From Lentisphaerae bacterium GWF2_49_21 (lineage in GTDB: Bacteria > Verrucomicrobiota > Lentisphaeria > Victivallales > GWF2-50-93): a stretch of DNA of 59,341 nt. The notes below the pieces were generated by a model. It was not told the origin of the DNA. It was given only the letters and a program-made list of their open reading frames with translations, and did not search any database. A program made the position numbers and the translations under genes. Below are positions 9,031 through 13,065 of this stretch, piece by piece (positions within the stretch are counted from its first letter, which is position 1; each line of letters starts with the position of its first letter). Where the stretch lies: positions 1 through 59,341 of the forward strand of contig MHBH01000082.1 of assembly GCA_001804805.1 (NCBI GenBank), in the 5' to 3' direction.

Positions 9031-10032
9031 TTACTTAAGGCTCCGGGCTTTCCCGAGGGCGAACTTGAAGATGCGTTCAATGGCAGTCTTGTCGGTGTGG
9101 TATCCCGTCTGCTGGGTTGTCTGCTGGCGGATTACCAAAATGTCCATCCCATCCTGAAGGTTCCATTCAGCGCATATTCCCGGAGAACTCTTTACGAGCA
9201 GTCTGGATAGGAATGAACCCGTTTCCTTGCTAGTTTCTCTGGCTTCAGAGGCAACTTTTGACAGCGTATTCTTCATGCCAAGCCCGGACTTTGCAACAAG
9301 GACGCAGTAGAGGTACGGATAATCGGCTCCTTGAACGTTGTTAAGCACCACCTGGGTCTGTATGCCGAAGAAGTTTTCACCGATCGCCGGAATCTGCAGG
9401 ATCAGCTTGGCATCCACTGGCATCTCGCCTTTCTTCCCTTTTACGACCTCGAGCTGGACAGCCATGTTTTCACCATCCTTCTTATTTGCCTCCCAGATGG
9501 AATACGCATGCAGAAGGTTTTCCACTTTCACTGTCAGAGGGGCGTTAGTCAGTATGCGCCGGACCCCGGTCACCCAGTGAGGCAGCAGCAGGATGGTTGC
9601 ATCCACTGATATTGTAAAAGCAAGCCGGAGGTAACCGCAGGTAGACATGACAAAATAGAATAAAATGAAGATTCCCAGGACGGCAATTAGGGAAAAACAG
9701 CCCTGGGTGCATGTAATGTCGATGAAGCTCTGGTCCCAGGATTTGGATTTTTTAGCTACTTCAATGATCTTTTCCAGCTGTTTCTTGTCTCCGGCGCGCC
9801 ATTCCTTTTTTGAACCCATTTCCCCAGGGACGTTTGTGTATCCTTTTACAATTCCCATCATTGACGCCACAAGCAGGAAAACTGAGCCAATGACCACCCA
9901 GTCAAGAATCAGCTGTAACGCAAAACCTGCGAGAAGGAGCAACGCCATCACAGCCAGACGACTTGTATATGTCATCGATTTGGCGAAGACAAAATGGATC
10001 TCTCCGCAGCGTTTTGGATCAGGCAGCAGCAT
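9031..10032 (-). CDS. Multi-span membrane protein of the CHSA/radical SAM operon
   Basis: A 333-residue membrane protein of no recognised family. Hydrophobic segments lie at about 22-60 (two spans, LAVMALLLLAGFALQLILDW and VVIGSVFLLVASMMGIV) and about 115-160 (two spans). A soluble C-terminal half of about 170 residues ends basic (FKFALGKARSLK). The ATG at 10032 is chosen because GGAAGGAGGAAGC precedes it; the frame is open upstream only because it overlaps the radical SAM gene. The gene starts 14 bases inside that gene, so the two are translationally coupled. By position it may export, anchor or receive the modified CHSA-tailed protein. Confidence 0.8.
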   Translation of the reverse strand: MLLPDPKRCGEIHFVFAKSMTYTSRLAVMALLLLAGFALQLILDWVVIGSVFLLVASMMGIVKGYTNVPGEMGSKKEWRAGDKKQLEKIIEVAKKSKSWDQSFIDITCTQGCFSLIAVLGIFILFYFVMSTCGYLRLAFTISVDATILLLPHWVTGVRRILTNAPLTVKVENLLHAYSIWEANKKDGENMAVQLEVVKGKKGEMPVDAKLILQIPAIGENFFGIQTQVVLNNVQGADYPYLYCVLVAKSGLGMKNTLSKVASEARETSKETGSFLSRLLVKSSPGICAEWNLQDGMDILVIRQQTTQQTGYHTDKTAIERIFKFALGKARSLK

Positions 10033-11353: not shown

Positions 11354-13065
11354 TGTCCACCTCCGCTGACGCAGGCTGAATGGCATGCAGAATGACATGC
11401 CGAGTGACACGCCGAATGGCAGGCAGAATGACATGCTGAATGGCACGCCGAATGGCATGCATCGTGGCAAGCAGTATGAACAAAACATCCCTGATAGCAT
11501 GCAGGACTGTCCATGAAACTCTTGTAGTCTCCGGATATTCCGGTCATCGCGTCCAGACTGCCCTGGACCACCTCGGGTACGGGATTGGCCATGGCCTGCT
11601 GGGAATTGTTGTGATAGCAATGGTAGCTGTTGTAGAACCAATAAGGATAATAGTTGTCGTCATTTTGCGGAAGAAGGTTCTTGTTCGCATCTTCAGTTGT
11701 CGGGGATTTCCTATCAAATGATTCCTTGAATTTGTCCGTGTAATATTCCGTAGTCGCTTCAGGGTCCGCGTCCCATGATTTCCTGCGCATTTCATCCACC
11801 ATATGGTTTATCAGTCCTCTCACCTTCTCCTGATTGAGCCTGCCGTCGGCACCGACAGCTCCAACAAGCAGTTTTTCGAATTCATCCAGGTTCGCATTCG
11901 GATTCAGGACATCGATACGGCCGTCCTCATGAAGGCTGACCACTCCATGGTTATGGAGTTTCCCTAGCATTATACCCAAAATACGGTTGACAGGAAGGCC
12001 GATGAACAAGGCCGACTCAAGGACGGAAAGATTCGGGATCTTCCCTTTTTCCCTGAAAGTTGTGATGATCATCTTCGGGGGAGTCCAATCCTGGTCGATC
12101 CAGCTGACATCTGTAAGTCCGTCTGCGGCCTTCAGCATGCTGTTATGCTTGCCTATTACGATTACGAAAAATGCCATGCACAGGATAAAAGCCATCACTG
12201 CCAGAACGATGATAGAATATTTCCTTATATTTTCATTGGAATATTTATTACTTTCCTTTGTCGATGGAACTGCGGGTTTATCCTGGATTGTCTTTTCACC
12301 TGCCGGCTGGGATACGATAAGCCTTGTATTCAAGTTTTGAGCTTGCCGTGCAGGCAGATTGAAGATGGAGGAGTCGATGTATTCCTGTATGATGAAATGA
12401 CCTTTTACCGGCACATTCTCCCAATGAATGAGCTGCATCAGCCAGAATTTCCCGTTATATTCCTGCGCACGGTAGTCCATCTTGTATTTTGAGTTCATCC
12501 ATTGTTCGGTCAGGATTTTCCTTGAAAGGTCTTCGCGGGAGGCTTTGTCGTCGGGAAGTTCCATGGGCCAGTATATCTTCAGGGTATAGTGTCCGAGAGG
12601 ATCTTCCCACTGCACCGGCGCCCAGTTGAGGACCACGAGTTTCTTTCCATCGGCAGAAGTTGTTTGTGCAAGATTTCCGGATTCACCCAGATCAGTTCCA
12701 TAGGTCAGGTTGTAGACGATACGTCCGTTTGACACCGAAGCTCCGTTTGCCAGGATCACATCGTATTTTATGCTGCTGACCGGCTTGATGGAAAGATCAT
12801 ACCGTTTGTTCTGGGAATCCAGGGCATAGCAGCGGCTCATGTCGAAGTGGGGTGTGCCGGTATATCCTTCGAAATAGAATCCGTGGAGGTTGAACCCCCG
12901 TGGATTGATTGCGACCTGATAGACGACGGTAGCCTTGCCGTCAGGTCGCAGTGAAAGTGAAACCTCTGCGAATTCCCAGTCGATCGCCATGGATGCCATG
13001 ACTGAAGACACCATGAGCAGCAATGAGAGGAATATTTTACCTATGAATGGGACTTTAATTCTCAT
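11350..13065 (-). CDS. DUF2207-like membrane protein with C-terminal (Cys-His-Ser-Ala)7 tail
   Basis: A 571-residue protein. A signal peptide (about 1-26) precedes an extracytoplasmic beta-rich domain (about 28-240). A transmembrane helix follows at 283-305, and the soluble part contains a DUF2207-like helical segment ([22 protein letters not shown]). An acidic, Tyr/Trp-rich linker leads to the tail, which has 11 cysteines between 523 and 565: [14 protein letters not shown], seven CHSA units (537-564), then CVSGGGH. Topology puts the tail in the cytoplasm, reachable by the downstream radical SAM enzyme, whose start codon overlaps this stop. The tail may be a modified peptide or a metal-binding module. 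No strong ribosome site precedes the ATG. The gene is divergent from the GntR gene at 13172. Confidence 0.88.
   Translation of the reverse strand: [571 protein letters not shown]
11356..11487 (-). repeat. Coding tandem repeat for Cys-His-Ser-Ala units
   Basis: Twelve-base units encode CHDA then CHSA seven times, plus the flanking cysteines. Third positions vary freely (TGC/TGT, CAT/CAC, TCA/TCT/TCG, GCA/GCC/GCG) while every amino acid is kept. Confidence 0.9.

Follow-up and report, generated by a model that had tools for sequence, protein, structure and literature searches.

The cassette and its genes

We analyzed a 59,341-nucleotide stretch of DNA, called the window here, from Lentisphaerae bacterium GWF2_49_21 (GCA_001804805.1, contig MHBH01000082.1, positions 1 to 59,341). 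Three genes on the minus strand, running from position 13065 down to 9031, code for a membrane protein with a cysteine-repeat tail, a radical SAM/SPASM enzyme, and a second membrane protein that we refer to as the partner. The tailed-protein gene and the radical SAM gene overlap where the TGA of the former meets the TTG start of the latter (11353). A further overlap, of 14 bases, joins the end of the radical SAM gene to the start of the partner gene, whose ATG lies at 10032. A sequence-only reading of this DNA had proposed the same three genes, coordinates, and overlaps, and we recovered all of them on the minus strand. The tail with 11 Cys and seven CHSA units that it described is also present, at the C-terminus of the 571-residue protein. 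The features of the cassette are as follows.

11350..13065, minus strand: tailed membrane protein, 571 aa, with a signal/anchor, a DUF2207-like ectodomain, one span, a TIGR04222-like domain, and a Cys-repeat tail
12367..12987, minus strand: predicted all-beta ectodomain, residues about 27-233 (AlphaFold model, VIA-align; Pfam DUF2207 on relatives)
12145..12228, minus strand: single strong membrane span, residues 280-307 (hydropathy in all 15 homologs; helix in the model)
11713..12033, minus strand: predicted cytoplasmic TIGR04222-like domain, residues about 345-451, with an invariant W431-D-x-D434 (TIGR04222 matches in relatives, conserved columns)
11353..11469, minus strand: repeat tail, residues 533-571, with one CHDA unit, seven CHSA units, and a terminal CVSGGGH
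10019..11353, minus strand: radical SAM/SPASM enzyme, 444 aa, TTG start, N-terminal RRE
11081..11317, minus strand: PqqD-type recognition element (RRE), residues 13-91 (profile matches)
10499..10996, minus strand: radical SAM core, residues 120-285, with CX3CX2C at C126, C130, and C133
10085..10333, minus strand: SPASM region, residues 341-423, with invariant C341, C355, C373, C410, C413, C419, and C423
9031..10032, minus strand: partner, 333 aa, two predicted hydrophobic hairpins (4 spans) and a cytoplasmic C-terminal alpha/beta domain (hydropathy, model)
9034..9540, minus strand: predicted C-terminal domain of the partner, residues 165-333 (predicted structure, fold comparison)

Divergent genes for a GntR regulator, an ABC ATPase, and a membrane permease lie at 13172-15871 of the window on the plus strand. 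They resemble the PmtR/PmtA export set for phenol-soluble modulins and were not found next to the cassette in other loci.

Distribution and co-inheritance

One scan of GTDB genomes returned 14 relatives of the enzyme with 48-74% identity, from Kiritimatiellae, Lentisphaerae, Verrucomicrobia, Elusimicrobia, and Planctomycetota. All 14 have a gene for a CHxA-tailed protein upstream and a partner gene downstream, and the tailed protein is present as one copy per genome in 14 genomes. Profile searches at a threshold of E <= 1e-80 identified the enzyme in 9 of 199 Elusimicrobia genomes, 2 of 289 genomes from the window's phylum, and 13 of 294 Planctomycetota genomes. The order tailed protein, enzyme, partner is kept in 30 of 30 loci from Verrucomicrobiota, Elusimicrobia, and Planctomycetota, with no counter-example among them. 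All three genes are present in 28 of these loci, and contig ends cut the other two. The L081 contig stops within the enzyme gene. The L088 contig stops within the tail, with the CHxA pattern still visible at the edge (G736:C656:7354-7404). In 15 further loci, the triad was present wherever the contig was long enough. The sequence-only reading had named radical SAM homologs without the tailed protein as evidence against its proposal, and we found none in this family.

Two loci show irregularities. The L088 genome contains a second CHxA stretch on another contig (G736:C291:17258-17332), which is either a second copy or part of a split contig. In L086 (G792:C2, 6371-8025), the tailed-protein gene is divided into two overlapping frames by a frameshift or an assembly error, and the enzyme and partner genes are intact.

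The CHxA DNA pattern occurs in only 2 of the 149 genomes of the window's class, both of which have the tailed protein and the enzyme. Among the 294 Planctomycetota genomes, the tail is present in 13 of 13 enzyme genomes (Fisher p 4e-20). A CHxA-type pattern was detected in 16 of the 294, comprising these 13 and three others with CHFA or CHAA tandem repeats. We considered spread of the cassette by viruses and rejected it; a scan of viral contigs gave 12 loci that were all low-complexity frames without the cassette.

The three proteins have diverged in parallel. Their pairwise identities correlate with r of 0.95-0.98, a level reached in 0 of 5000 Mantel permutations. In the enzyme tree, the Elusimicrobia form a well-supported clade, and the Planctomycetota are split between two positions, with one member of the window's phylum placed among them. 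These placements fit sporadic loss and transfer of the whole cassette.

Conservation ends with the triad. No other gene is common to all complete loci, and no conserved protease or exporter was found in the 30 loci. Just downstream of the cassette, eight Elusimicrobia loci carry two genes of Fe-S cluster assembly, for NifU and for a NifS-like class V aminotransferase (L009:8272-10788, L007, L008, L010, L011, L015, L077, and L079). The recurrence of the same tail and gene order across phyla, together with the presence of the CHxA pattern in only 2 of 149 genomes, argues that the cassette did not arise by chance. We conclude that it is a real, co-inherited three-gene unit. Conserved in three phyla and usually present as a single copy, the cassette ties a radical SAM enzyme firmly to a repeat-tailed membrane protein.

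The repeat tail

We compared 29 tails, counting units by the CHxA pattern; the runs are unbroken up to a C-terminal C-[VH]-S motif. Each tail has 3-10 units, and the 220 units in total comprise 167 CHSA, 38 CHDA, 14 CHGA, and one CHAA. When the tails are aligned, C, H, and A are almost invariant, and the third position is S, D, G, or A. Mean pairwise identity is 92% in the tail and 43% in the body (best equal-length body window, 0.60). By these alignments, no other part of the protein is conserved as well as the tail.

The DNA of the repeat behaves differently from its translation. CHSA units inside one tail mostly differ in DNA through scrambled synonymous codons. The codons vary from unit to unit and the protein stays constant, across proteins down to about 30% identity. 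This pattern indicates selection on the protein and not on a DNA repeat.

The body of the tailed protein and the partner

Pfam gave no match above cut-off for the tailed protein or the partner of the window, and domains in the body were assigned through relatives. Pfam DUF2207 (PF09972) matches the ectodomain in 6 of 15 relatives, with a best E of 4.8e-4; members scanned singly score 13.9-17.5 bits against a gathering score of 24.4. The DUF2207-like label of the sequence-only reading is thus carried by these relatives, but the match is weak and the window protein itself is unmatched. TIGR04222 matches 5 of 15 members after the span, at residues 338-443 (best 23.3 bits, E 4.1e-5), and these matches are partial (profile positions 24-130 of 229) and below the curated cut-off of 43 bits. 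The tailed protein of genome G595 also matched TIGR04222 in a genome search (7.9e-5). Neither the window genome nor 20 relatives gave a match when searched with TIGR04222.

By hydropathy, the protein has an N-terminal hydrophobic stretch and a single strong span at about residues 280-307. By the usual topology rules, the ectodomain is predicted to lie outside the cell and the tail in the cytoplasm, where the sequence-only reading had also placed it. The structural model of the tailed protein has a mean pLDDT of 68, with a beta ectodomain at about 80 and a disordered tail. In VIA-align, the modeled ectodomain resembles ribophorin I of the eukaryotic OST and the N-domains of M1 aminopeptidases (Z 12.5, 174 residues, 3.2 A), a likeness of fold and not of function.

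The partner model (mean pLDDT 83.7) has four predicted membrane helices followed by a cytoplasmic C-terminal alpha/beta domain. Foldseek returned no match for the partner at E <= 0.001. In VIA-align, the arrangement of the C-terminal domain came closest to type III secretion class I chaperones and YbjN, with chaperones as the best rows. The best Z was 7.1, a level also reached by unrelated folds, and we rejected an assignment of the partner by fold.

The radical SAM/SPASM enzyme

The enzyme was assigned to the radical SAM and SPASM families in the sequence-only reading, and Pfam agrees, matching Radical_SAM (PF04055) at 5.5e-30 and SPASM (PF13186) at 1.5e-9, above its cut-off. The reading also predicted a PqqD-like N-terminus and named the lack of an RRE match there as evidence against its proposal; the match holds at the profile level. 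In the first 97 residues, Pfam PqqD matches 6 of 15 relatives (best 1.8e-4) and NCBIfam PqqD (TIGR03859) matches 8 of 15 (best 1.5e-4). We aligned this region by hhalign with PqqD domains from 28 Planctomycetota loci and obtained a probability of 96.4% (P 1.1e-9); 30 column-shuffled controls reached at most 7.2%. A sequence search of the PDB gave weak matches for the RRE, with a PqqC/D chain (E 1.7) ranked behind HIV-protease noise. The profile comparisons identify the N-terminus as a PqqD-type recognition element.

The three Cys of the radical SAM motif are conserved in 29 of 29 full-length members. A CYAACGC stretch follows the motif (window about 10937-10945), in which C137 is invariant (29/29) and C139 is present in 24 of 29. 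An extra Cys pair near the active site is unusual. The seven SPASM-region Cys listed above are invariant in 29 of 29 members, and C358 is present in 28 of 29. Six positions of the seven-Cys SPASM motif are invariant, and the last Cys, after CX2CX5CX3C, is missing in 29 of 29.

SkfB and PqqE are the best-matching solved structures. After other radical SAM enzymes come 5wgg and 5v1q, which we take to be CteB and SuiB, respectively. The enzyme could not be placed in a named maturase family; among the best 25 of 104 matched families, no NCBIfam model was over its cut-off, and weak matches to other CXXX maturase models may rank below these 25. The top NCBIfam scores belong to the heme-type enzymes AhbD (167, cut-off 500) and NirJ2 and are far under cut-off.

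A model for tail modification and its alternatives

We propose that the cassette works as a RiPP-like modification system acting on a whole membrane protein, with the enzyme modifying the tail unit by unit, a reading to which we assign a probability of about 0.6. The anatomy, the co-inheritance, and the RRE are shown by the data above, and the docking, the stepwise modification, and its chemistry are inferred. The tail itself is likely to be the substrate of the enzyme. Bacteria with the cassette would then probably decorate a whole membrane-bound protein, not a small peptide, by undescribed chemistry. Tail and enzyme would share the cytoplasmic side of the membrane. The RRE may dock on the cytoplasmic portion of the tailed protein, possibly close to the invariant W-D-x-D motif. 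The enzyme would move along the tail and modify each unit in turn. The likeliest chemistry would be a thioether that links each Cys to a carbon atom in a neighboring His or Ala, and we propose a Cys thioether tentatively, at somewhat below even odds. C, H, and A hardly vary and the third position is free, so the side chain at that position is unlikely to be the acceptor. The resulting Cys/His array would be cross-linked and tethered to the membrane, probably metal-binding or redox-active, and the partner would hold or protect it; that the partner holds the tail is a guess. Taken at its most specific, the model has the enzyme processively turning a cytoplasmic Cys-His tail into a permanently tethered, cross-linked metal or redox array of a cell-envelope protein, with no released peptide, and it is rather unlikely to be correct in all of these parts together.

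Several observations bear on this proposal. In its favor are the fixed gene order, the co-occurrence of enzyme and tail, the correlated identities of the three proteins, a tail conserved over scrambled codons, the RRE, SkfB and PqqE among the nearest solved structures, and the pairing of GGCGG-tailed TIGR04222 proteins with MNIO enzymes described below. Sacti- and ranthisynthases keep one cluster site open for the substrate, whose thiol is believed to bind at an auxiliary cluster (PMC8326336). Given this precedent, we count the missing final SPASM Cys in all 29 members in favor of tail modification, with the caveat that C341 or C358 could complete an auxiliary cluster, which makes the open site uncertain. 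The acceptors of the thioethers in ruminococcin C include Ala (PMC6779426), and we count this toward a thioether. The top scores of the enzyme are to heme-type enzymes and not to a peptide maturase, which counts against peptide modification. RiPP maturation usually finishes with cleavage and export, and the lack of a conserved protease or exporter therefore counts against a RiPP-like system. Finally, DUF2207 proteins with Cys-free tails and no such enzyme show that low-complexity tails need not be substrates.

The repeats could be modified without Cys thioethers, for example by C-C or C-N bonds at His, epimerization, or Cys/His oxidation. RRE-bearing SPASM enzymes make C-C bonds (SuiB), and other radical SAM enzymes epimerize residues (PMC8326336). 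An invariant His is not required by a pure Cys-Ala bridge, and the unusual C137 and C139 beside the radical SAM motif are also consistent with a different reaction. However, the Cys in each unit is most simply understood as a thioether donor or a cluster ligand, and we regard this chemistry as possible but doubtful. An unmodified tail that serves directly as a thiol/imidazole array for metal binding or redox work is improbable in our view; in that case, the enzyme would use the tail for docking or as a source of metal or Fe-S, or would act on another substrate. The alternation of C and H in each unit suits such an array, as do the NifU and NifS-like genes in Elusimicrobia and the scores to AhbD and NirJ2. 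Yet these neighbors are limited to one clade, and no heme-type enzyme is known to us to carry an RRE. Fusion of an RRE to a SPASM radical SAM enzyme is, by contrast, a signature of peptide modification (PMC8326336).

The range of 3 to 10 units could suggest that expansion of a DNA repeat produced the tail by accident, as low-complexity sequence in a coincidental neighborhood, and pure CHFA/CHAA DNA tandem repeats do occur in three other Planctomycetota, as do low-complexity matches in viral contigs. Chance expansion is nevertheless refuted by the codon differences between units, which accompany a constant protein at identities down to about 30%, and by the complete co-occurrence of the tail with the enzyme. 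We give this explanation a negligible probability.

A short, regular repeat, a recognition domain built into the enzyme, and simple expected mass changes make modification of the tail by the radical SAM enzyme directly testable. RiPP enzymology has centered on small precursors. If our proposal is true, this chemistry would extend to protein-scale, membrane-embedded substrates.

Comparison with known systems

We compared the cassette to systems with related components. CXXX-repeat systems (TIGR04117, Syntroph_Cxxx) also have Cys at every fourth residue and a target encoded beside a radical SAM enzyme. The TIGR04117 model has 98 positions, whereas the substrate candidate here is a 571-residue membrane protein, and the cassette tail scores 11.4 bits of a 50-bit cut-off (E 0.26). 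Sactipeptide and ranthipeptide maturases (SkfB, CteB, PapB, RumMC) share an RRE or RRE-like N-terminus, a radical SAM core, SPASM/twitch clusters, and a Cys-rich substrate. Their substrates are small peptides, made as a short precursor with a leader, cleaved, and exported, unlike the candidate in the cassette. DUF2207 (PF09972) membrane proteins have an exported N-terminal domain that weakly resembles the ectodomain here, and frequent C-terminal low-complexity tails, but the DUF2207-like neighbors that we examined have Cys-free tails and no such enzyme nearby.

No Pfam or NCBIfam model (2025-2026) names any cassette protein as part of such a system, and we found no open-access paper that describes the cassette or joins radical SAM with DUF2207. 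The sequence-only reading knew of no described system with exactly this layout, but it missed the closest published parallel. TIGR04222 proteins are described as membrane proteins with Cys-bearing low-complexity C-termini, often encoded beside MNIO, and were proposed in 2025 as MNIO substrates (PMC12452194). Because of that proposal, the idea of a Cys-tailed membrane protein as substrate is not entirely new.

The TIGR04222 (near_uncomplex)/MNIO (DUF692) systems and the cassette share a TIGR04222 or TIGR04222-like membrane protein, a low-complexity Cys-rich C-terminus, an adjacent peptide-modifying enzyme, and a protein-sized putative substrate. They differ in most details. The MNIO systems have an MNIO enzyme, often no RRE partner, and Gly/Ser-rich tails with scattered Cys (GGCGG) that are predicted to be periplasmic. 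The cassette instead has a SPASM radical SAM enzyme with an RRE and a strict CH[SDGA]A tail with a predicted cytoplasmic location, and it also includes a DUF2207-like ectodomain and a four-span partner. We read 15 TIGR04222 or DUF2207-like loci in Planctomycetota, and none of them contains the radical SAM enzyme or the partner of the cassette. Typical TIGR04222 members in these loci have GGCGG tails, and the DUF2207-like members have Cys-free tails (GGSGGGG or GGGSGGGG). An MNIO gene (PF05114; MbnB_TglH_ChrH) adjoins a GGCGG-tailed TIGR04222 protein in L145, L147, and L148 (E 1e-86, 8e-71, and 7e-61). MNIO is not a conserved gene beside the CHxA-tailed protein in complete cassette loci. The cassette is a second solution of the TIGR04222/MNIO kind, with another enzyme and another tail. 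Membrane proteins with Cys tails are therefore found together with two kinds of peptide-modifying enzyme that are unrelated to each other, and the tail type differs with the enzyme; this provides the strongest indirect argument that the tail is the substrate. If so, the cassette would be a radical SAM counterpart of the MNIO systems proposed in 2025.
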